NCBI GenBank assembly: GCA_015490755.1
Contig: WFXF01000015.1
Location: forward strand, 1 to 39,142
DNA length: 39,142 bases
Reading direction: 5' to 3'
Source: Gammaproteobacteria bacterium
GTDB taxonomy: Bacteria; Pseudomonadota; Gammaproteobacteria; JAADGQ01
How positions within the stretch are numbered: the stretch's first letter is position 1; each line of letters opens with the position of its first letter. The notes beneath the pieces were generated by a model. That model saw only the letters and a program-made list of their open reading frames with translations. It was not told the DNA's origin and made no database searches. Positions 7,826-37,867 of the stretch are shown in pieces. Position numbers and translations under genes: made by a program.

Positions 7826-7960
7826 ATCCTTAACTTAATGGCAGTGACGGATGACCGTGGGATCCGATAAAAATTAGATGCTGTTTTTGAATACTCTCTG
7901 TAAAATTGGCATATTTGATAAATTTTAATGTTAGCCACAAAAAAACAAGGATGTTATGAA

Positions 7961-8395
7961 ATGGCAAATTGGACTAAGCTTTTAAATCCAGTACGTAGGA
8001 AAGATCTGGAGAAGGAGGCTTGTAATGAGCCTAAGAAAAATGGTGCAAGAACGGAAATTGAAAGGGATTATGATCGAATCCTGTTTTCGACACCTGTGCG
8101 TAGAATGGCAGATAAGACACAAGTGTTTCCACTAGAACGTAACGACAGCATAAGAACACGTCTCACTCATTCTCATGAAGTGGCAAACCTTTCTCGTAGT
8201 GTTGGTATTACTTTGGCTTTCGATCACAACCTTGCAAATGATGATGACGAGCAGGCAAAAAGAAATATACCTGCACTCTTGGCTGCAATTGGTTTGGCTC
8301 ATGATTTAGGAAATCCTCCTTTTGGACATCAAGGAGAACAAGCTATTCAAGCTTGGTTTAAAAAAATAAGGAGGTTTTTGATTGTCAAGATTTAA
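7961..8395 (+). CDS. dGTPase-like HD phosphohydrolase, N-terminal part (frameshifted)
   Basis: This frame encodes the N-terminal 135 or so residues of a deoxynucleoside triphosphate triphosphohydrolase (Dgt family), which cleaves dNTPs to deoxynucleoside and triphosphate. The HD metal site is visible: H70 in RTRLTHSHEV, H114-D115 in LAHDLGNPPFGH and H123. After a run of seven A at 8360-8366 the frame leaves the family sequence and stops. One more A would join it to the downstream frame without loss. I chose the ATG at 7961 (AAGGA 10 bases upstream); the in-frame ATG at 7928 is less likely. The gene is either broken, mis-sequenced or dependent on slippage. Confidence 0.8.
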   Translation: MANWTKLLNPVRRKDLEKEACNEPKKNGARTEIERDYDRILFSTPVRRMADKTQVFPLERNDSIRTRLTHSHEVANLSRSVGITLAFDHNLANDDDEQAKRNIPALLAAIGLAHDLGNPPFGHQGEQAIQAWFKKIRRFLIVKI

Positions 8396-9375
8396 AGCCA
8401 GAATACAAAAAAGATTTTTTAAACTTTGAAGGTAATGCTCAAACGCTTCGAATACTTACGAAGCTACAAGTTATTAATGACAGCTTTGGATTGAATCTAA
8501 CGTTTGCATCATTATCTGGATTGATGAAATATCCTGTAGCTTCCAATGAAGTAGACAAGGAAAAAGGCATCGCATACAAAAAGTTTGGGTATTTCCAGTC
8601 AGAAAAAGAAATTGTTAAAACAATATGGAAAGAAACAGGCTTGAGAAAGGGGTGCAGGCACCCATTGACTTACATAATGGAGGCCTGTGATGATATTGCT
8701 TATTCTGTTTTGGATGCAGAAGATGCCGTAAAGAAAAGTATAATTTCTTTTTCTGATTTAATGACTTTTCTTGAACATCATCATGGAGGTGATAAGTTAG
8801 TTAAATGCGTGATAAAAAAGGCGAAAAAAAAACATGCTGATTATCTTAATGTTGATTTGTCTCCATCGGAGTTAAACGATATATCTATGCAAATGTTCCG
8901 AGTTTATGCTATCCATGAAATGATTGTTGCGGTAACAAATGCTTATCTTGATCCCAAACACAAAGCAAAGCTTATAGTGGGTAGCTTTGATAAGGAGCTT
9001 ATTGAAGTGAGTAAGGCTGCAAAAATTCGGGAATTATTAAAAGAATTTGATAAAAGCCATGTTTACCAACATCGTGCTATATTGGAGGTTGAACTGACAG
9101 GCTATAACACTATTAATCAACTGATGGACATTTTTTGGGGAGCCATTCAAACGAAATATAAGCACAAAGATAGAAAGCCTGAATTTAGCGCTCCATATGC
9201 TGATTATGTATTTTCAAGGATTTCTGAAAACTACAGGCGTGTTTTTCTAGATAAAGAAAATAAACTTCCAAAGAGGTATAAAGAGTTACAATTAATAACG
9301 GATATGGTTTCAGGGATGACAGATTCGTATGCGATTTCCTTGTTACAAAATTTAAAACAATATGCAGAAAATTAA
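8396..9375 (+). CDS. dGTPase-like HD phosphohydrolase, C-terminal part (frameshifted)
   Basis: The reading frame that continues the dGTPase, in the -1 frame relative to its N-terminal part, is open from about 8361. It contains EGNAQTLRIL, typical of the Dgt family, and EACDDIAYSVLDAEDAVKK, which carries the last metal-binding Asp of the HD site. Residues after that are the family's helical C-terminal domain. If translated separately it would need the TTG at 8491 or another weak start, and the resulting protein would lack the HD histidines. It overlaps the next gene by 14 bases. Base composition is AT-rich compared with the hyp and flagellar genes. Confidence 0.78.
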
Positions 9376-10482: not shown

Positions 10483-11063
10483 ATGGTGAAAATCTTAATG
10501 CATACCAAGAGACCTTTGCTTGTTGTGATTGCAAGCTTCATAGTTTTCATTCTATTAGATTTTCTTTTTCCATTGCCATCTACTCATGTCCAGTTCGCAC
10601 GGGTTGTTGTTGCTCAAGATGGAAGCCCGCTCAGAGCGTTTGCAGATGACAATGGTGTGTGGCGTTATCCTGTGGCACCCAAAGATGTTTCGCCAAATTA
10701 TCTGGATGCTCTGATTAATTATGAAGATCGCTGGTTTTATTATCATCCCGGTGTGAATCCCTTCGCGCTTGTGCGTGCGACCTGGCAGAATTTGGGCAGT
10801 GATCGACTAATCTCTGGTGCTTCGACGTTGACCATGCAGGTGGCACGTTTGCTCGACCCTCATTCACGTTTATTTTTCGGCAAATCAAAACAGATCTTTC
10901 GAGCGCTGCAATTAAAGTGGCACTACAGCAAAGATGAAATTCTCACACTCTATCTGAATCGAGCCCCCTTTGCCCAAGTTTATTTCAGTCTGGGCGTTAT
11001 GTGATCACTGTAGTGGACGAGCAGGGGAAAAGCGATGAAGTCATTATCGAAGTTTCGCTTTAG
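10483..11063 (+). pseudogene. pbpC: pbpC remnant: two ends of penicillin-binding protein 1C
   Basis: Residues 1-165 match the N-terminus of PBP1C: a membrane anchor at about 10-30, then the GT51 transglycosylase start with NYEDRWFYYHPG (catalytic Glu) and SGASTLTMQVARLL, up to YLNRAPF. The normal protein continues for roughly 600 more residues. Here the match breaks near 10970-10985. From about 10986 a different frame reads SGRYVITVVDEQGKSDEV to a TAG at 11061-11063, which looks like the BiPBP C-terminal end. So most of the transglycosylase, the transpeptidase and the linker are deleted. The first frame stops at 11002-11004. It is not expected to be functional. Confidence 0.8.
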
Positions 11064-11167
11064 GAGTGGTCATGGAATAAGGCTATCTTGCCAAGCCTGG
11101 TTTGACTTTCCCTTAAACAAAGATTACTTTTTAAAATGTGAACTTTAAACTGAAGGCATATATTACA

Positions 11168-11413
11168 ATGGAAGCAACTGCAAAAGATCTTAGGCTTCAT
11201 TCTACCGAGCTGCTTAATACGGTAAAACGAGGGGAAGAGGTTATTATTACCTATCGTGGTAAGCCTTGCGCAAAATTAATACCTATCGAAGAAAAGCAGG
11301 ATTACTCTTCATCTACAAACAAACTATTTGGAATATGGGAAAATAATTTGCAGACAGAGAGCGTTGACGACTATGTTAGAAATATAAGAAAAGGCAGGTT
11401 TAATGCTGATTGA
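11168..11413 (+). CDS. Phd/YefM-like antitoxin (second module)
   Basis: An 81-residue protein starting MEATAKDLRLHSTELLNTV, with the Phd fold pattern (VIITYRGKPCAKLIPI). It is homologous to the antitoxin at 1108-1344 and would neutralise the downstream VapC. I chose the ATG at 11168, preceded by GAAGG, over an in-frame GTG at 11138. The stop overlaps the toxin gene by 11 bases, exactly as in the first module. Confidence 0.82.
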   Translation: MEATAKDLRLHSTELLNTVKRGEEVIITYRGKPCAKLIPIEEKQDYSSSTNKLFGIWENNLQTESVDDYVRNIRKGRFNAD

Positions 11414-11780
11414 TACCGATGTTATTATTTGGTACATGCGTGGAAATATAAATGCACAAAAAATCATTTATAAAAACAAAGGATTTATGGTTTCGGTTGT
11501 GACATACATGGAATTAGTCCAAGGGATGAGAAATAAAAAAGAGTTACTTTTATTGCGTAAAGCATTAAAGGCATGGAATACAAAAATTGTTTATCTCACG
11601 GAAGAAATATCGAGCAAAGCGATGTTTTATGTTGAACAGCATTACCTCAGTCACTCCATACAGCTTGCTGATGCATTGATAGGGTCGACAGCTGTTGCCT
11701 ATGGAGTGCCTCTTCTGACAGGTAATGATAAACATTATAAAGTGGTCAAAGAGATCCAGACTATAAAGTTTGTACCCTGA
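11403..11780 (+). CDS. vapC: VapC-family PIN-domain toxin (second module)
   Basis: A 125-residue PIN-domain RNase with D4 and D6 in MLIDTD, E37 in YMELVQG, D90 in QLADALIG and N108/D109 in TGNDKHY. It aligns without gaps over its full length with the toxin at 741-1118, but with many substitutions, so the two are related and not recent copies. It is coupled to the antitoxin by an 11-base overlap. The intact sites suggest an active toxin. Confidence 0.88.
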   Translation: MLIDTDVIIWYMRGNINAQKIIYKNKGFMVSVVTYMELVQGMRNKKELLLLRKALKAWNTKIVYLTEEISSKAMFYVEQHYLSHSIQLADALIGSTAVAYGVPLLTGNDKHYKVVKEIQTIKFVP

Positions 11781-19974: not shown

Positions 19975-20973
19975 ATGTCAGCGAATGATCTGCTATCCCA
20001 GGATGAAATTGATGCGTTATTGCACGGTGTATCCAGCGGCGATGTAGAGACCGAAGAGTTTGAGCCCGGTGAGGAAGGAGGTGCCCTGGCGTATGACTTC
20101 AATAGTCAGGATCGCATTGTACGCGGTCGAATGCCTACTCTGGAGATGATCAACGAACGCTTTTCACGTTACTTTCGAATCAGTCTTTTTAATATGTTAC
20201 GGCGCACGGCAGAAATTTCGGTTGAAGGAGTACAGATGCTCAAGTTTGCAGAGTATGTGCATAGCCTGTTTGTGCCCACTAATTTGAATTTGGTTAAGGC
20301 TGATCCATTGCGTGGAACGATGCTGTTTATTCTGGATCCCAAGCTCGTTTTTATCATTGTAGATAATTTTTTTGGAGGAGATGGCCGCCACGCAAAGATC
20401 GAAGGTCGTGAATTTACGATGACGGAACAACGCGTTATCCAGATTGTATTGAAGCGAATTTTTGCAGATATGAGTGAAGCATGGGAAGCGGTTATGCCAT
20501 TGAAGTACGAATATTTAAGCTCTGAAGTGAATCCGCATTTTGCCAATATTGTCAGCCCCAGCGAGGTGGTGGTGGTCAGCTCTTTTAATATTGAACTGGA
20601 TGGGGGAAGTGGTTCGTTTCATGCGGTTATTCCATACGCGATGCTGGAACCGATTCGTGAACTATTAGATGCAGGCATTCAAAGTGACCGTGTTGAAACA
20701 GATGAACGTTGGTCAAATGCTCTGCGCAGTGAAATTAATACGGCTTTGGTCAGTATGAGTTCGACATTGGTTGAAACAGAGATCACGTTACGTGATGTGA
20801 TGAATATGAAAGCTGGAGATATTATTCCAATTGATCTGGAGGATGAAATCCGTATGAATGTTGAAGGTGTTCCAATTTTTAACGGCTCATTTGGAGTATC
20901 ACGGGGTAATATTGCATTTAAAATTTCAGGAAAAATTAAACGAGAAGAGATTGATTCAGGAGTGGCCAAATGA
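19975..20973 (+). CDS. fliM: FliM, flagellar switch protein
   Basis: A 332-residue C-ring switch protein. The N-terminal CheY-P binding peptide LLSQDEIDALLHG (6-18) is intact. The middle CheC-like domain includes the conserved region near NERFSRYFRISLFNMLRR, and the C-terminal part is a SpoA/FliN-like domain. CheY-P docking on the N-terminal peptide promotes reversal of rotation. It begins 6 bases after fliL and overlaps fliN by 4 bases. Confidence 0.97.
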   Translation: MSANDLLSQDEIDALLHGVSSGDVETEEFEPGEEGGALAYDFNSQDRIVRGRMPTLEMINERFSRYFRISLFNMLRRTAEISVEGVQMLKFAEYVHSLFVPTNLNLVKADPLRGTMLFILDPKLVFIIVDNFFGGDGRHAKIEGREFTMTEQRVIQIVLKRIFADMSEAWEAVMPLKYEYLSSEVNPHFANIVSPSEVVVVSSFNIELDGGSGSFHAVIPYAMLEPIRELLDAGIQSDRVETDERWSNALRSEINTALVSMSSTLVETEITLRDVMNMKAGDIIPIDLEDEIRMNVEGVPIFNGSFGVSRGNIAFKISGKIKREEIDSGVAK

Positions 20974-30037: not shown

Positions 30038-30430
30038 GTGGATAAAAATATGAAAATTTTGATCGTGGATGATTTTTCAACGATGCGCCGCATTATTAAA
30101 AATCTATTACGTGATCTGGGGTTTAATAATACCGCAGAAGCCGATGATGGTAATACAGGCTTGCCTATGTTGCAGTCGGGAAACTTTGACTTCCTTGTGA
30201 CCGACTGGAATATGCCGGGTATGCCTGGAATTGATCTGCTCAAAGCGGTCAGGGCAGATGAGAAGCTCTCTTCCCTGCCTGTTTTAATGGTAACAGCTGA
30301 ATCCAAGCGAGAACAGATTGTAGCAGCGGCAGAAGCGGGTGTGAATGGCTATATAGTAAAACCGTTTACAGCGGCCACATTAAAAGAAAAAATCGATAAA
30401 ATTTTTGAACGCATTGAGGCAAGTGCTTAG
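30038..30430 (+). CDS. cheY: CheY, chemotaxis response regulator
   Basis: A 130-residue single-domain receiver. The acidic pocket D11-D12, phosphoacceptor D56, T86 and K108 are all present. CheY-P binds FliM and CheZ. The start is GTG at 30038 with GGAGGT five to six bases upstream; an ATG four codons later is too far from that site. Confidence 0.97.
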
Positions 30431-30484: not shown

Positions 30485-31225
30485 ATGATAGAGACGGTCG
30501 ATGCACCAAGCCAGGAGCTTGAATTAGCCCAGCAACTTGTTGAACACATAAAAGCAGGCAATAGTGACGATATCACTCAGGTGTTTGAAGAGCTTGCATC
30601 CATACGCGAAACCACCCTGTTTCAAGAACTGGGCAAACTCACAAGAGAGTTCCATGAAACGCTGAATAGTTTTCGTCAAGATATTGATTTGGCCAATATG
30701 GCCGAACAGGAGTTCCCTGATGCTAAAGAGCGGCTGAATTACGTAATTACAATGACTCAGCAGGCGGCAGATCGCACTTTGAATTCAGTCGAAGGTGCGC
30801 TTCCTTTATGTGACAGCCTGACTCAAAACACGAATCAACTTAAATTACGCTGGAAGCGTTTTCAATCCAGAGAGCTGTCAGCCGATGAATTCAGATCTTT
30901 GGTTCATGATATTGATGGTTTTCTTGATGCCTCATACACAGATTCAGGAAAGCTTAAAGAGCAGCTAAATGATATTTTAATGGCTCAGGATTATCAGGAC
31001 CTGACCGGTCAGATTATTCGCAAAGTTATTAGCCTGGTCGATAATGTAGAAAAAGGTTTAGTCAATTTAATTAAAGTATCGGGGGCAAGGATTACATCTG
31101 TTGAAAATGAAAAAGTCAATGATGTCAATGTACTTGAAGGCCCTCAGATACCAAGTATGAAGTCAAGCACAGCAGTTAATGGGCAAGATGAAGTGGATGA
31201 CTTATTGTCGAGCCTCGGTTTCTAA
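30485..31225 (+). CDS. cheZ: CheZ, CheY-P phosphatase
   Basis: A 246-residue CheZ. The long helical hairpin carries the catalytic segment MAQDYQDLTGQ (active-site Gln and Asp), and the last twelve residues, DEVDDLLSSLGF (235-246), are the CheY-binding tail known from E. coli. Between them is a flexible linker (about 200-230). Confidence 0.97.
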   Translation: MIETVDAPSQELELAQQLVEHIKAGNSDDITQVFEELASIRETTLFQELGKLTREFHETLNSFRQDIDLANMAEQEFPDAKERLNYVITMTQQAADRTLNSVEGALPLCDSLTQNTNQLKLRWKRFQSRELSADEFRSLVHDIDGFLDASYTDSGKLKEQLNDILMAQDYQDLTGQIIRKVISLVDNVEKGLVNLIKVSGARITSVENEKVNDVNVLEGPQIPSMKSSTAVNGQDEVDDLLSSLGF

Positions 31226-31236
31226 AGGAATTAGAT

Positions 31237-33297
31237 ATGGCAATTGATATGGATGACGAAATACTTCAAGACTTTCTTGTCGAAGCACAAGAGATATTGG
31301 AGAGCTTGGGTGAGCAACTTGTCGAGTTAGAGCAGACTCCTGATGATAATGAGCTTCTCAATGCAGTTTTTCGTGGATTTCATACTATAAAAGGCGGAGC
31401 AGGTTTTCTTGAACTGACATCCATGGTTAATATTTGTCATCATGCTGAAGATATATTTAATCTGTTAAGGCAAGGTGAGCGCAAGGTTGATGCCTTGCTG
31501 ATGGATGTTATTTTAAAGTCACTTGACGCTGTTAATGGCATGTTTGAAGAACTGACCTCGGGTAATGAGCCTTCTGACGCGCCGCCTGAATTGCTGGCAC
31601 AGCTTGAATCACTAATGGCCGGAGAAGTATCCGAAGTGATTGCTGAAGAGGAAGCAGCAGATGAGGTTGATGTTGAGTTCGATGCAATGCTGGATGGCGC
31701 GACAAGTGATGGTGGTGCCTCTACAGATGAAATTACAGATGATGAATTCGAATCTCTTTTAGATGACCTGCAAGGTAATAAGGCTCAAAACAGTATGCCG
31801 TCGCCTTCAGCTTCTGATGAAATAAATGATGAAGAGTTTGATGATCTACTAGACAAAATTCATGGTAAGGGAAAGCATACAACTCCTGTGCAATCACCAT
31901 CTTCTGGCAAGACAGAAAATGCAGCTTCTGAAAATATAGATGAGGCTGAATTTGAACAACTGCTTGACAGTATACATGGTAAGGGAAAACATGGCTTAAC
32001 AACAAAAAAACCAGCGGAAAAAACAGTAAAAAAGCCGGCTGTAGAGGCAAGGCCCGCTAAAAATGATGCTACGCCCCCAATAGAAAAATCCTCCAGGAAA
32101 GATGATTCGGGCAAAAGTGGATCACAACAGGAGACAACGGTTCGAGTTGCAACCAAACGCCTTGATGAAATTATGAATATGGTGGGTGAGTTGGTATTAG
32201 TGCGCAATCGACTAAAAACTTTGGAGGGCACACGTAATGATGAAGAGCTCTCAAAAGTAATCAGTAGTCTGGATGTTGTCACAGGTGACCTGCAAATGTC
32301 AGCCATGCGAACTCGTATGCAGCCCATTAAAAAGGTTTTTGGACGTTTCCCTCGTGTTGTACGCGATTTAGCACGCAGCCTGAATAAAGAGATCAAGCTG
32401 GAAATGGAGGGTGAAGAGACCGATCTTGATAAAAATCTGGTTGAAGCACTGGCCGATCCATTGGTGCATTTAGTTCGAAATTCAGTGGATCATGGTATTG
32501 AAACCCCTGAAGTTCGTAGAGCTGCAGGAAAACCTGCGACCGGAACTATTAACTTGTCTGCGGTGCAAGAAGGTGACCATATACTGCTTTCCATTGCTGA
32601 TGATGGCGCAGGGATGAATGCCGATGTATTGCGCAAAAAGGCCGTTGAAAAAGGAATAATGGATGAAGATGCCGCAGCCCGCCTGGATGATACTGATTGC
32701 TATAACCTGATCTTTGCTCCAGGTTTTTCGACTAAAGCTGAAATTTCGGATATTTCAGGTCGTGGAGTTGGAATGGATGTTGTAAAAACACGTATTTCTC
32801 AACTCAACGGCTCGATTATTATTAAATCTGAAGAAGGAAAAGGCAGCACAATCAGTATCAAGGTACCCCTTACCTTGGCCATTATGCCGACCCTGATGGT
32901 GATGTTAGCGGATCACATCTTTGCACTGCCACTCGTGAATGTGAGTGAAATTTTTAATTTTGACCTTTCCAGAACAAATGTAGTTGATGGAAAATTGGTG
33001 GTACAGGTCAGAGGGAAGTCAATTCCACTTTTTTATTTAAGGGAGTGGCTCATCCCTTATGATGATTCGCCTATTGATAAAAGCGCAGGGTTTGTTGTTA
33101 TTGTGAATATCGGTACACGCCATATGGGGTTTGTGGTGGATCAATTAATCGGGCAGGAGGAGGTTGTTATCAAGCCGTTAGGTGCTATGCTTCAAGGTGT
33201 TTCCGGGTTAGCCGGTGCAACAATTACAGGTGATGGCCGTATTTCACTTATACTGGATATTCCAGGTTTGACCTCTTCATATGCACGGTCGATGTAG
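31237..33297 (+). CDS. cheA: CheA, chemotaxis histidine kinase without a recognisable P2 domain
   Basis: A 686-residue CheA. P1 is an HPt domain with phospho-His H49 in FHTIKGGAGF. P3 dimerisation begins near 300, the P4 ATPase has the N box (HLVRNSVDHG), DDGAGMN and GRGVGMDVVK, and P5 is CheW-like at the C-terminus. Residues about 130-300 are an acidic, then Lys/Pro-rich linker where P2 would be. It contains four spaced motifs: EFDAMLDG (147-154), EFESLLDDLQG (170-180), EFDDLLDKIHG (200-210) and EFEQLLDSIHG (238-248). These look like the FliM N-terminal and CheZ C-terminal CheY-binding peptides encoded in the same operon. Confidence 0.97.
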   Translation: MAIDMDDEILQDFLVEAQEILESLGEQLVELEQTPDDNELLNAVFRGFHTIKGGAGFLELTSMVNICHHAEDIFNLLRQGERKVDALLMDVILKSLDAVNGMFEELTSGNEPSDAPPELLAQLESLMAGEVSEVIAEEEAADEVDVEFDAMLDGATSDGGASTDEITDDEFESLLDDLQGNKAQNSMPSPSASDEINDEEFDDLLDKIHGKGKHTTPVQSPSSGKTENAASENIDEAEFEQLLDSIHGKGKHGLTTKKPAEKTVKKPAVEARPAKNDATPPIEKSSRKDDSGKSGSQQETTVRVATKRLDEIMNMVGELVLVRNRLKTLEGTRNDEELSKVISSLDVVTGDLQMSAMRTRMQPIKKVFGRFPRVVRDLARSLNKEIKLEMEGEETDLDKNLVEALADPLVHLVRNSVDHGIETPEVRRAAGKPATGTINLSAVQEGDHILLSIADDGAGMNADVLRKKAVEKGIMDEDAAARLDDTDCYNLIFAPGFSTKAEISDISGRGVGMDVVKTRISQLNGSIIIKSEEGKGSTISIKVPLTLAIMPTLMVMLADHIFALPLVNVSEIFNFDLSRTNVVDGKLVVQVRGKSIPLFYLREWLIPYDDSPIDKSAGFVVIVNIGTRHMGFVVDQLIGQEEVVIKPLGAMLQGVSGLAGATITGDGRISLILDIPGLTSSYARSM
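31675..31992 (+). repeat. Coding repeat: four EF-x2-LLD-type motifs in the CheA linker
   Basis: This part of cheA encodes four copies of EF(D/E)x(L/M)LD; the last two are followed by (K/S)IHGKGKH. Starts are at residues 147, 170, 200 and 238, giving spacings of 23, 30 and 38. The last two copies also agree at the DNA level (CATGGTAAGGGAAA occurs in both, near 31861 and 31975), which suggests internal duplication. Confidence 0.75.
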
Positions 33298-33308
33298 GGA
33301 GGTACTTC

Positions 33309-34328
33309 ATGGTTCGTGTCTTGGTAGTTGATGATTCAGGTTTTTTTCGTCGTAGAATTATCGAAATTTTGAATGCAGACAGCTATATTGAAGTGATCGG
33401 TCAGGCATCCAATGGTAAAGAGGCCGTAAAACTTGTTACATCATTAAAACCTGATCTGGTCACCATGGATGTTGAAATGCCAGTCATGAATGGTATTGAA
33501 GCCGTTCGTCGTATCATGAAAGTGAACCCTGTACCCATCTTAATGCTTTCAACACATACGACCGAAGGCGCTCAATCAACTCTGGATGCTCTGGAAGCAG
33601 GTGCAGTTGATTTTATATCCAAGACGTTTGAAAAAGAAAACTCATTACCAGAGGTTGCGTATCGAATGCTGCGTGCTCGAGTACGTGTTCTGGGAAAACA
33701 GCGAGTGACTGAAAAAAAACCGGTAATAAAGCCACGGCAGGTTGATACAAAAAAGCAAGGTCATTATCAGATTGTTGCCATTGGCAGTTCTACAGGAGGG
33801 CCTGCTGCGTTGCCAAAAGTACTGACCGCACTCCCGGAAACTTTTCCTTTGCCTATTCTTTTGATGCAACATATGCCCTCTACTTTTACACCTGCTTTTG
33901 CGCAGCGTTTAAATCAGCTCTGTGCTATTGAGGTTAGGGAGGCTGTTGATGGTGATTCTTTGAAGCCTGGTTTAGCATTATTAGCTCCTGGTGGAAAGCA
34001 GATGGTTGTTGAGAGTGTAAATGGTAGAGGCATAGTACGTATCGTGGATGGATTACCTACGATGCAATACCGCCCTTGTGTTGATTTTACATTTGCCTCA
34101 CTGGCTAAAGTTTTTCCAAAAAAAGTTCTGGCAATCTTATTGACAGGTATGGGGTCAGATGGCTGTGAAGGGGCACGTAAATTAAAAGCAGGTGCATCAA
34201 CTCTTTGGGCTCAAGATGAAGCGAGTTGTGTTGTTTATGGAATGCCAATGGCAGTAGCAAAGGCAGGATTAGTTGATCAGGTCATACCACTCTCAGAGAT
34301 TGGAGATCGTTTGGTCAAGGCGGTTTAA
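33309..34328 (+). CDS. cheB: CheB, receptor methylesterase
   Basis: A 339-residue protein: receiver domain (1-120) with phosphoacceptor D54, a basic linker (about 130-155) and a methylesterase/glutamine-deamidase domain with Ser in GSSTGGPAAL, His in QHMPSTFT and Asp in LTGMGSDG. It removes methyl groups from chemoreceptors. The matching methyltransferase CheR is not in the window, which is usual for this cluster. Confidence 0.96.
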   Translation: MVRVLVVDDSGFFRRRIIEILNADSYIEVIGQASNGKEAVKLVTSLKPDLVTMDVEMPVMNGIEAVRRIMKVNPVPILMLSTHTTEGAQSTLDALEAGAVDFISKTFEKENSLPEVAYRMLRARVRVLGKQRVTEKKPVIKPRQVDTKKQGHYQIVAIGSSTGGPAALPKVLTALPETFPLPILLMQHMPSTFTPAFAQRLNQLCAIEVREAVDGDSLKPGLALLAPGGKQMVVESVNGRGIVRIVDGLPTMQYRPCVDFTFASLAKVFPKKVLAILLTGMGSDGCEGARKLKAGASTLWAQDEASCVVYGMPMAVAKAGLVDQVIPLSEIGDRLVKAV

Positions 34329-35117: not shown

Positions 35118-35945
35118 ATGGCACGTAAAAAAAGAGAGGAAGAGCACGTCAATCATGAGCGTTGGTTGATCTCATATGCTGATTTTATAACACTACTCTT
35201 TGCTTTTTTTGTAGTGATGTATGCAGTATCTTCAGTAAATGAAGGCAAATATCGTGTGTTGTCTGATTCGTTATCGGCCGCGTTCAGTGACCCAAAGCGT
35301 TCTATGGACCCGATTCAGGTTGGGCAAATTTCCAGAGGAGGGCAAAGCAGCAGTTCTGCAATAGGTGAAGGTCAAGGAAGTGGCCTGTTATCGTTGCCCC
35401 AAATTCCAAACCTTAAACAGAGCCAAACAGAGTCCGACCATCAAAAAGGAATCGAAGCCTTAAATGATATTTCAAGCCTTATTGAAGGGACATTAAGTGA
35501 CTTTATTGAACGGGGTGATATCGAAATTACCCGTAATGACCTATGGATTGAAATTGATATAAAAAGCAGCCTTCTTTTTCCAAGTGCAATGGCAACACTC
35601 CAGCCTGCCGCAATAAGAGTTCTTAAATCGCTCTCTTCTATACTGAAAAATTATCAAAACCCGATTCATGTCGAGGGCTTCACTGACTCTGTTCCAATCA
35701 AAACAATTATTTTTCCATCAAACTGGGAACTGTCCGCTTCACGTGCTGCGAGTGTTGTTCAACTTTTAACACAAAGCGGGGTAAATCCCTCAAGAATGGC
35801 CGCCATTGGCTATGGTCCATATCGTCCGATCGCTTCAAATGATACTGCCGAGGGGCGTAGTAAAAATCGTCGAATCGTATTGGTTGTATTAGCGGATGAA
35901 CGGGTTCAGCGAATTTTAACTGAAAAGTTAAGGAATAAATTGTGA
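35118..35945 (+). CDS. motD: MotD, flagellar motor stator subunit
   Basis: A 275-residue MotB-family protein. The TM helix at about 18-38 includes SYADFITLLFAFFVVMYA with the ion-binding Asp. A plug/linker region (about 50-105) leads to an OmpA-like peptidoglycan-binding domain (about 150-262) with VEGFTDSVPI and GRSKNRRIVLVV. AAGGA sits 6 bases before the ATG. The stop overlaps the parC start. Confidence 0.96.
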   Translation: MARKKREEEHVNHERWLISYADFITLLFAFFVVMYAVSSVNEGKYRVLSDSLSAAFSDPKRSMDPIQVGQISRGGQSSSSAIGEGQGSGLLSLPQIPNLKQSQTESDHQKGIEALNDISSLIEGTLSDFIERGDIEITRNDLWIEIDIKSSLLFPSAMATLQPAAIRVLKSLSSILKNYQNPIHVEGFTDSVPIKTIIFPSNWELSASRAASVVQLLTQSGVNPSRMAAIGYGPYRPIASNDTAEGRSKNRRIVLVVLADERVQRILTEKLRNKL

Positions 35946-36709
35946 TCGTTTGGGCTATTGCCAATCAAAAGGGAGGGGTAGGAAAGACCACAACAACAAT
36001 CTCATTGGCTGGTATTTTAGCTCAGCAGGAAAAGCGGGTTTTATTAGTCGATCTGGATCCTCATGCGTCACTCACAGCATATTTAGGCTACCAGCCGGAT
36101 GAAGTAGAGAGCGGGTGTTATTCACTGTTTATCGATAAAAAAGCGCACATCAAACCGCTAATCAATAAAACAGCGTTTGATCAAATTGATATTTTGTGTG
36201 GCTCGCCAGCACTGGCAACTTTGGAACGGCAGATGGGAACTCGACCGGGTAAAGGATTGGTTTTACAGCAGACAATCAAAGAAGTTGAGTCAGACTACGA
36301 TTACCTGTTAATAGATTGCCCCCCCATTTTGGGGCTATTGATGGTCAACGCACTAGCGGCGTGTAATTTATTATTAATTCCTGTGCAAACAGAGTTTTTG
36401 GCAATCAAAGGTCTTGAGCGCATGGAGCGTACATTGACCATGATTAATCAGTCCCGAAAAAAATCTCTACCCTATATTATAGTGCCGACAATGTTTGATC
36501 GTCGCACACGAGCTTCTGTCAAAGCATTAAGAGTGTTACGTGATAACTTTACAGAGCATCTTTGGAAAAAAGTCATTCCTATCGACACTTTGTTTCGTGA
36601 AGCGAGCCAGGCGGGAAAGCCTCTTTCATTTATGACACCTGAGGCAAAAGGAGTCATAGCATTTCGTGCTCTGCTCAACTCGATTACTGTGCAAAGCAGA
36701 GTTTTATAG
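35942..36709 (+). CDS. parC: ParC-type ParA ATPase for polar array positioning
   Basis: A 255-residue ParA/MinD-like ATPase with deviant Walker A K10GGVGKTT and LLVDLDPHASLTAYLG. In the polar flagellum/che clusters of Vibrio and Pseudomonas this gene position encodes ParC, which places chemosensory arrays at the pole and segregates them. It starts with GTG inside the motD stop (GTGA) and is followed directly by the parP-like gene. It is not a plasmid partition gene here. Confidence 0.88.
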   Translation: MIVWAIANQKGGVGKTTTTISLAGILAQQEKRVLLVDLDPHASLTAYLGYQPDEVESGCYSLFIDKKAHIKPLINKTAFDQIDILCGSPALATLERQMGTRPGKGLVLQQTIKEVESDYDYLLIDCPPILGLLMVNALAACNLLLIPVQTEFLAIKGLERMERTLTMINQSRKKSLPYIIVPTMFDRRTRASVKALRVLRDNFTEHLWKKVIPIDTLFREASQAGKPLSFMTPEAKGVIAFRALLNSITVQSRVL

Positions 36710-37321
36710 ATGGAGTTTAAAACACAAACAGCTCAGCAAGATGTTCTTAAAGTTTATCTTGATTCATTGTTGCAAGAGGTATTACCCGAAGTAGATGAAC
36801 TGAAGTCCGTCGTTAAAGAAGAGGTATCGCCAGAACCTGCACCAACAATTTCTGTGCCGGTTAAAAAAGTAGTCATTCCTGCGTGGGCCACAACAGAATT
36901 TGAAAGTCTGTTATTTACTGCTGGTGGGTTAAAACTATCCATTCCATTGGTTAAGTCCAATGGAATATTGGCGTGGGACTCAGTAGATTTAACTCCAATG
37001 CCGGGACATAAACTCTGGTATCTGGGTATTATCAGCCATCAAGGCAAGCATGTGAAAGTGATTGATGTTCTTAATTTTGTAACGCCTTCGAGTTATAAAG
37101 TAAAACCTCTTAAAGACCGATTACAAAATATTGTATTAATTGAAGATGCCAATTGGGGTCTTGCTTGTGACTCTATTACAGGTACTTTGGCATTGCAGCG
37201 AGATGGGGTGCGATGGCGTACAAACCGAAGTAAACGCCCATGGTTGGCTGGCACAGTCATTGAGCAGATGTGTGCATTAATCGACACCGATGAGTTTGTA
37301 CGTTTGTTATCAAACAATTAA
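36710..37321 (+). CDS. parP: ParP-like CheW-domain protein
   Basis: A 203-residue protein with a variable N-terminal Pro-rich segment (1-60) and a C-terminal CheW-like domain (about 62-200: LLFTAGGLKLSIPLVKSNGIL). In Vibrio, ParP links ParC to CheA through this domain. It begins immediately after parC. It is shorter than many ParP proteins, mainly in the N-terminal region. Confidence 0.82.
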   Translation: MEFKTQTAQQDVLKVYLDSLLQEVLPEVDELKSVVKEEVSPEPAPTISVPVKKVVIPAWATTEFESLLFTAGGLKLSIPLVKSNGILAWDSVDLTPMPGHKLWYLGIISHQGKHVKVIDVLNFVTPSSYKVKPLKDRLQNIVLIEDANWGLACDSITGTLALQRDGVRWRTNRSKRPWLAGTVIEQMCALIDTDEFVRLLSNN

Positions 37322-37363: not shown

Positions 37364-37867
37364 ATGAATCAGGTAGCCACGACGACAACTTCAAGCAATA
37401 CACAAAATACATCAGATGATCTTGTTTCCCAATGGGTCACTTTCTGTATGGATGGTGAAACTTACGGAATTAATGTCATGCAAGTACAAGAGGTGCTGCG
37501 TGTTCCGGATATCGCTCCGGTTCCGGGGGCTCCAGATTATGTCTTAGGTATTGTCAATTTGCGTGGTAATGTTGTCACTGTGCTTGATACGCGCCAGCGC
37601 TTTGGTCTATTACAAAAAGAAAATGATGACTCAACCCGAATCGTGATTGTGGAAGCGGGCAAACAGGTGGTAGGCATTTTAGTGGATAGCGTGGCAGAAG
37701 TGGTTTATCTGCATGCTTCAGAAATAGAGAGCACACCTTCAGTCAGTAATGATGACAGTTCAAAATATATTCAGGGTGTTTGTAATCATGAAAACAAGTT
37801 ACTGATTTTAGTTGATCTCGATAAGTTACTGACCACTGAAGAGTGGAGCGAGATGACGGAGCTGTAA
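37364..37867 (+). CDS. cheW: CheW, chemotaxis coupling protein
   Basis: A 167-residue CheW with an N-terminal tail (1-25) and the family pattern FCMDGETYGINVMQVQEVLR and LGIVNLRGNVVTVLD. It couples receptors to CheA in the array. AGGAGC precedes the ATG. Confidence 0.97.
   Translation: MNQVATTTTSSNTQNTSDDLVSQWVTFCMDGETYGINVMQVQEVLRVPDIAPVPGAPDYVLGIVNLRGNVVTVLDTRQRFGLLQKENDDSTRIVIVEAGKQVVGILVDSVAEVVYLHASEIESTPSVSNDDSSKYIQGVCNHENKLLILVDLDKLLTTEEWSEMTEL

Follow-up and report, generated by a model that had tools for sequence, protein, structure and literature searches.

Tandem FliM/CheZ-like motifs in the interdomain linker of P2-less gammaproteobacterial CheA are candidate docking sites for CheY

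More than half of the CheA kinases lack the P2 domain and contain an extended unstructured region in its place; in the accessible part of the paper reporting this, no motif is named for that region (Berry et al. 2023, PMC10782961). How such a kinase recruits CheY is the question raised by the window analyzed here, the whole stretch of 39,142 nucleotides of contig WFXF01000015.1 from a gammaproteobacterium. The open reading frame (ORF) list combined with a Pfam scan identifies cheA at 31237..33297 on the + strand, encoding a protein of 686 aa in which the Hpt (P1, residues 8-99), H-kinase_dim (300-358), HATPase_c (407-546) and CheW-like (553-680) domains follow one another in the order typical of CheA, all above the Pfam cut-offs, with a linker of approximately residues 100-299 between P1 and the dimerization domain. 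P2 domains of Escherichia coli and Thermotoga maritima (PF09078, PF07194) are single folded domains located in this same place between P1 and P3. The window CheA matches neither the P2/CheY-binding families of Pfam nor a home-made P2 profile, so it is not a canonical five-domain CheA, and AlphaFold models of the linkers of its relatives contain short helices only. Thus, the absence of an evident P2, from which the original prediction started, holds.

The gene belongs to a large flagellar and chemotaxis cluster in the order fliL, M, N, O, P, Q, R, flhB, flhA, flhF, fleN, fliA, cheY, cheZ, cheA, cheB, motCD, parC, parP, cheW, where the names are assigned by homology and order. The proposed partner of the linker, CheY, is encoded at 30038..30430 (+), followed by cheZ (30485-31225; CheZ Pfam match with an E value of 1.5e-72). 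Downstream of cheA are cheB (33309..34328, +), whose receiver domain is a second possible partner, and parC (35942..36709, +), a ParA-like ATPase gene of the kind involved in polar array placement, which shows ParA-family matches and precedes parP, its name being inferred from this neighborhood. The parP gene (36710..37321, +) encodes a CheW-like AIF domain that has a CheW Pfam match and matches the ParP profile with an E value of 5.3e-58, the protein itself being a row of that profile; ParP is the rival candidate for the partner of the linker. Elsewhere in the window, inspection by eye finds two adjoining frames (7928-9375) that resemble two halves of a single dGTPase/HD-domain protein and so point to a possible frameshift or broken gene, and two small PIN-domain-like proteins (741-1118 and 11138-11780), one of which is preceded by an antitoxin-like frame, as in toxin-antitoxin systems. 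The preceding frame at 10483-11004 has the appearance of a truncated penicillin-binding protein.

The linker of the window CheA contains four copies of a motif of about 17 residues, DEITDDEFEALLDQLHGxG, three of them good and one degenerate; all four are in the CheA frame, internal to the P1-P3 linker and away from the protein termini. Copy 1 (ADEVDVEFDAMLDGATS, 31657..31707, +) lacks the HG and falls below the threshold of the motif profile, although it is retained in the sister genome L111. Copies 2 (DEITDDEFESLLDDLQG, 31726..31776, +), 3 (DEINDEEFDDLLDKIHGKGKHT, 31816..31881, +, with DEINDEEFDDLLDKIHG at 31816-31866) and 4 (ENIDEAEFEQLLDSIHGKGKHG, 31930..31995, +, with ENIDEAEFEQLLDSIHG at 31930-31980) match the profile with E values of 2.0e-9, 1.1e-9 (this copy being a row of the profile) and 3.3e-9, respectively. 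Searched against the whole 2.6 Mb genome, the profile identifies these three copies, at E values of 1e-9 to 3e-9, and nothing else, which excludes a chance resemblance. Hence, three of the four motifs originally predicted in this linker are good copies, and the first is present only in a degenerate form without HG. A Pfam search with the whole CheA also yields a DUF6576 score of 23.9 bits, against a cut-off of 27.3, and the linker alone reaches just this cut-off, the best stretch spanning 16 of 47 positions; the identity of the copies with DUF6576, SHOCT or GemA domains was rejected as being below the curated cut-off and reflecting a resemblance between helices, not a domain.

Near-identical copies are found in the linkers of a sample of 80 named loci that includes Pseudomonas, Stutzerimonas, Methylococcaceae, Sedimenticola, Methylophaga, Ferrimonas and Pseudoalteromonas. 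Because one of the search peptides for this sample was derived from the motif, a second sample free of that bias was drawn, consisting of 185 genomes from across the class, retrieved with the complete CheA, and 99 genomes from one order. In these evenly drawn gammaproteobacterial genomes, the motif is present in the linkers of practically all complete CheA proteins of the window type, in 1 to 8 copies spaced by 22-106 residues (median 41); one lineage (L165) possesses degenerate copies only. The consensus is D-E-I-[TS]-[DE]-[DE]-E-F-[ED]-x-L-L-D-x-L-H-G-x-G, with F and the second L invariant in the profile. Among 111 class-level CheA proteins, the core of the copy nearest P3 shows a pairwise identity of 66%, compared with 64% for P1, 68% for P3, 69% for P4, 60% for P5 and only 16% for the adjacent linker. 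The copies are the sole recurrent element of the linker, which otherwise is rich in Ala and Pro: motif 5-mers reach 78 of 107 linkers, each non-motif 5-mer occurs in at most 12 of the 107, and Phe accounts for 0.4% of the linker outside the motif. Thus, the expectation that the motifs are conserved beyond this strain is confirmed on the scale of the class, with a core as conserved as the catalytic domains, and the label "Pseudomonas-type" that had been attached to this CheA is too narrow, the motif being general to the CheA class in Gammaproteobacteria. The literature searched, with subscription papers mostly outside it, contains no report of the motif letters or of linear motifs in CheA; the repeat, real and class-wide, is unremarked there. 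The most extreme case of repetition is a CheA of about 1070 aa (L144, genome G031), which has eight copies and in which P3 is preceded by a long stretch of (KPAAAPA)n. Another genome, assembled as one contig and 100% complete (G032, locus L100), retains the order cheY-cheZ-cheA-cheB-parC-parP-cheW, with three motif copies and a hook-protein-like gene alongside, and has no FliM or FlhA match; in this case, the flagellar export and switch genes are lost or missing and the chemosensory set remains.

The motif is confined to one type of CheA. The 22-column profile has matches in 72 of the 185 class genomes; the strong matches listed are all in frames of CheA size or in short ones that fit broken CheA genes, marginal matches alone (E values of 0.006-0.042) are seen in five genomes, and there is no convincing match in proteins other than CheA. 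A search of 299 genomes of the phylum returns 48 matches, all in the same class, and none outside it. Among the 213 CheA proteins collected, 196 contain the motif and no P2, 8 contain a P2-type domain and no motif, and none combines the two. The P2 profile was built from the second type of CheA, of which the genome of the window has one (L002, contig 41), and the eight P2-type proteins include six identified with it, L168 with a Pfam CheY-binding domain and L179, recognized by eye; the rest of the motif-less set consists of broken frames, L165 with its degenerate copies, and CheA proteins of other classes. Given that the two CheA types are separate lineages, this exclusion counts as approximately one evolutionary event. 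The genome of the window itself encodes further CheA-like kinases on contigs C9, C41 and C88, the one on C41 having a P2-like domain without the motif, so that docking by motif and docking by P2 may occur side by side in the same cell. One motif-less CheA of another type (L229) has a linker repeat of its own, GFGFFxPL, in about four copies (GYGFFQPL, DFGFFGPL, GFGFFAPL and GFGFFEPL), and a related peptide, DFGFFDG, is present in the linker of L179; this is possibly a second, independent docking repeat.

The clue to a partner comes from two peptides encoded in the same cluster. The fliM gene (19975-20973; FliM family match), about 10 kb upstream of cheA, encodes a protein that begins with MSANDLLSQDEIDALLHGV, and the peptide DLLSQDEIDALLHG (19987..20028, +) follows the pattern of the CheA motif, as does GQDEVDDLLSSLGF, the very end of CheZ (31181..31222, +). 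Both termini, read from the ORFs, are as originally described. The three align without gaps (FliM LLSQDEIDALL, CheZ SGQDEVDDLL, CheA EITDDEFEALL), and aligning the ends of FliM and CheZ to more than 300 motif copies reveals a shared N-capped helix followed by phi-[DE]-x-L-L. In E. coli FliM (PDB 1F4V, 1U8T), LSQxEIDALL matches ITDDEFEALL without gaps, with S/T as the N-cap and E three residues later, followed in both by an aliphatic or aromatic residue, an acid, A, L and L; FliM has Ile in a single copy at the protein terminus, whereas the CheA motif has Phe and continues with DxLHGxG. Similarly, VDDLLSSL of CheZ (PDB 2FMF, 2FMH and relatives) compares with FEALLDQL in the hydrophobic positions i, i+3, i+4 and i+7, but the CheZ peptide is single and ends terminally in GF, whereas the CheA copies are multiple and internal, unlike both terminal peptides.

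When about 5,400 proteins from all loci are blindly ranked with BLOSUM62 against the FliM 11-mer LLSQDEIDALL, the top 400 consist of 179 CheZ, 151 CheA and 70 other proteins, and CheA is retrieved with an AUC of 0.987, 53% of its entries being among the highest-ranked 1%. For shuffled FliM peptides, the corresponding means are 0.87 and 7%, and 2 of 40 shuffles equal the true order; thus, the order of residues matters, composition explains a part of the signal, and the similarity to FliM by itself is moderate evidence. The predicted common pattern of FliM, CheZ and CheA is therefore real, ungapped and highly ranked in a blind search, with the reservation that those two shuffles rank CheA as well. 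The CheZ peptide on its own retrieves CheA weakly. The BLOSUM62 ranking with shuffled controls replaced a log-odds matrix based on a small set of near-identical FliM or CheZ sequences, which proved too narrow, the FliM version finding CheA weakly and the CheZ version not at all. The FliM scan also brought up the C-terminal end of the window CheW (37364-37867), LLTTEEWSEMTEL; its LL[ST]xEEW tail recurs in other CheW proteins of the class (LLSDDEWDELS) and resembles the N-capped pattern. A role of the motif as a recruiter of CheZ was rejected because six motif-bearing genomes (G020, G164, G095, G142, G237 and G257) have no CheZ match.

The FliM and CheZ peptides share one face of CheY, alpha4-beta5-alpha5, and CheY3 of Vibrio cholerae binds FliM at this face only when activated (PMC3774744). 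The CheY proteins of the class closely resemble both V. cholerae CheY3 and the E. coli CheY present in the structures with FliM and CheZ peptides, and their alpha4-beta5-alpha5 face is nearly invariant. The preference of these peptides for activated CheY presents a difficulty, since a substitute for P2 would be expected to bind CheY in its unphosphorylated form; this preference could be altered by multivalency or by the Phe that replaces Ile. That CheA proteins of this kind work follows from the phosphotransfer from CheA to CheY observed in vitro for Pseudomonas putida (PMC11978298). In the same paper, P2 is drawn in the P. putida CheA from a Pfam prediction; the linkers of the P. putida-type CheA proteins collected here (e.g., L074) contain the motif only.

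For AlphaFold modeling, two natural inputs were used in which the CheY frame is read into the CheA frame with stops read as Ser, along with 32 paired rows; the read-through serves as a computational tether only and implies no readthrough in the cell. With separate CheY and CheA rows, MAFFT misaligned P1 on CheY, whereas the read-through rows aligned properly. In the model of the one-copy protein L160, CheY and P1 are predicted with high confidence, the linker has values below 50, and a helix is predicted at the motif (378-389; block means of 61-73). For L129, with four copies, one of them degenerate, helices are predicted at 340-348, 376-386, 410-421 and 458-468 (block means of 62-81). With moderate confidence at the motif helices (block means of 61-81), these models support short helices at the copies, set in a disordered tether that lacks a P2 fold.

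The main competing explanation is that the copies constitute the LID, the linker region through which ParP binds CheA in Vibrio and which is described as located between P2 and P3 and as restricted to CheA proteins accompanied by ParC and ParP (PMC5706961, PMC7534058); the copies would then bind ParP, or another protein with the CheW-like/AIF fold, and keep CheA within polar arrays, with CheY not being a partner. This is attractive given the published interaction and the presence of parC and parP just downstream in the window. Furthermore, in the Vibrio-like relatives L214 and L215, judged as such by ParP and genome layout, P2 is lacking and conservation within the linker is limited to the copies, which form a conserved region before P3 as described for the LID; judged by this published description, the LID therefore probably contains the copies. 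Copy number is also higher in the presence of ParP (mean of 2.98 versus 2.07 in its absence; p = 0.0015, ancestry ignored). However, in a ParP profile search of 40 genomes, where true ParP proteins score at least 42 bits and CheW proteins about 26-34, around 15 motif-bearing genomes from roughly 11 families have CheW-level scores only (G001, G008, G010, G159, G020, G164, G024, G166, G054, G105, G148, G150, G153, G197 and G222), with G142 borderline, and the motif core is the same with and without ParP. Neither ParP nor ParC is found near cheA in G001, G008, G020, G164 and G197; G197 is a one-contig genome with three copies and no detectable ParP, and in G020 and G164, the latter with a single copy, CheY directly precedes CheA and neither ParP nor CheZ is detected. 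A very divergent ParP is conceivable in a few of these genomes, where a ParC-like gene is retained. In contrast to the LID, then, the motif also occurs without detectable ParP, so that the LID cannot alone explain it; moreover, the motif sequence fits the FliM and CheZ peptides and no known CheW ligand. Binding to ParP as the only role is thus weakened and appears unlikely, and a dual use of the copies is likely.

Being kept in genomes with no detectable ParP or CheZ, the motif is independent of both, which leaves CheY as the obvious remaining partner, with CheB, CheW and receptors being equally general. Accordingly, another universal partner that is as widespread as CheY, such as P1 or P4 of CheA itself, CheB alone, CheW, receptors, or a polar or second-messenger protein, might bind the copies and tune kinase activity. 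An acidic N-capped amphipathic helix is generic and fits many surfaces, as the weak Pfam resemblance to helices of DUF6576, GemA and SHOCT illustrates; against this, P2-type CheA proteins have P1, P4, CheB, CheW and receptors, yet no motif, and the pattern matches ligands of CheY, which makes such a partner rather improbable. That the copies bind nothing and merely space or stiffen the linker would fit its otherwise disordered, Ala/Pro-rich composition, but is very hard to reconcile with side chains conserved to the level of the catalytic domains and with the invariant F and L, for which a spacer has no need.

Docking of CheY by the motif copies is the best explanation of these observations, and we consider it somewhat probable from the comparison of sequences. 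The CheA linker would be a disordered tether on which short docking helices are lined up, each copy forming an N-capped amphipathic helix, [IF]-[ST]-[DE]-[DE]-E-F-[ED]-x-L-L-D-x-[LI]-[HQ]-G, whose hydrophobic stripe of F, L, L and L (i, i+3, i+4, i+7) would lie in the alpha4-beta5-alpha5 groove of CheY, where the N-terminus of FliM and the C-terminus of CheZ bind. A number of weak, interchangeable sites near P1 would raise the local concentration of CheY and so perform the job of P2, and the kinase, the switch and the phosphatase would use a common peptide code and compete for the same face of CheY. The receiver domain of CheB is a possible user of the same sites, and where ParC and ParP are present, the CheW-like domain of ParP may be an additional or alternative ligand of some copies, which would then act as the LID. 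The identity of CheY as the partner, the face that is bound, the multivalency and any influence on phosphotransfer are what we infer from this arrangement. In their most likely, ancestral role, the copies would dock CheY and perhaps CheB, with ParP possibly using them where it is present. The broader proposal, that the whole flagellar CheA class recruits CheY through tandem FliM/CheZ-type motifs that replace P2, under one shared code and with the LID as a secondary use by ParP, is a serious possibility, if a little short of probable on sequence grounds.

For the CheA proteins without P2, which make up more than half of all CheA (PMC10782961), the conserved repeated peptide provides a concrete, mutable candidate for the element that feeds CheY to the kinase, and the class concerned is large, including relatives of Pseudomonas, Ferrimonas, Methylophaga and others. 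If the proposal is correct, it would unite the kinase, the motor and the phosphatase under a common recognition code, give the LID a new interpretation and account for the strong selection on linkers that have been dismissed as unstructured.
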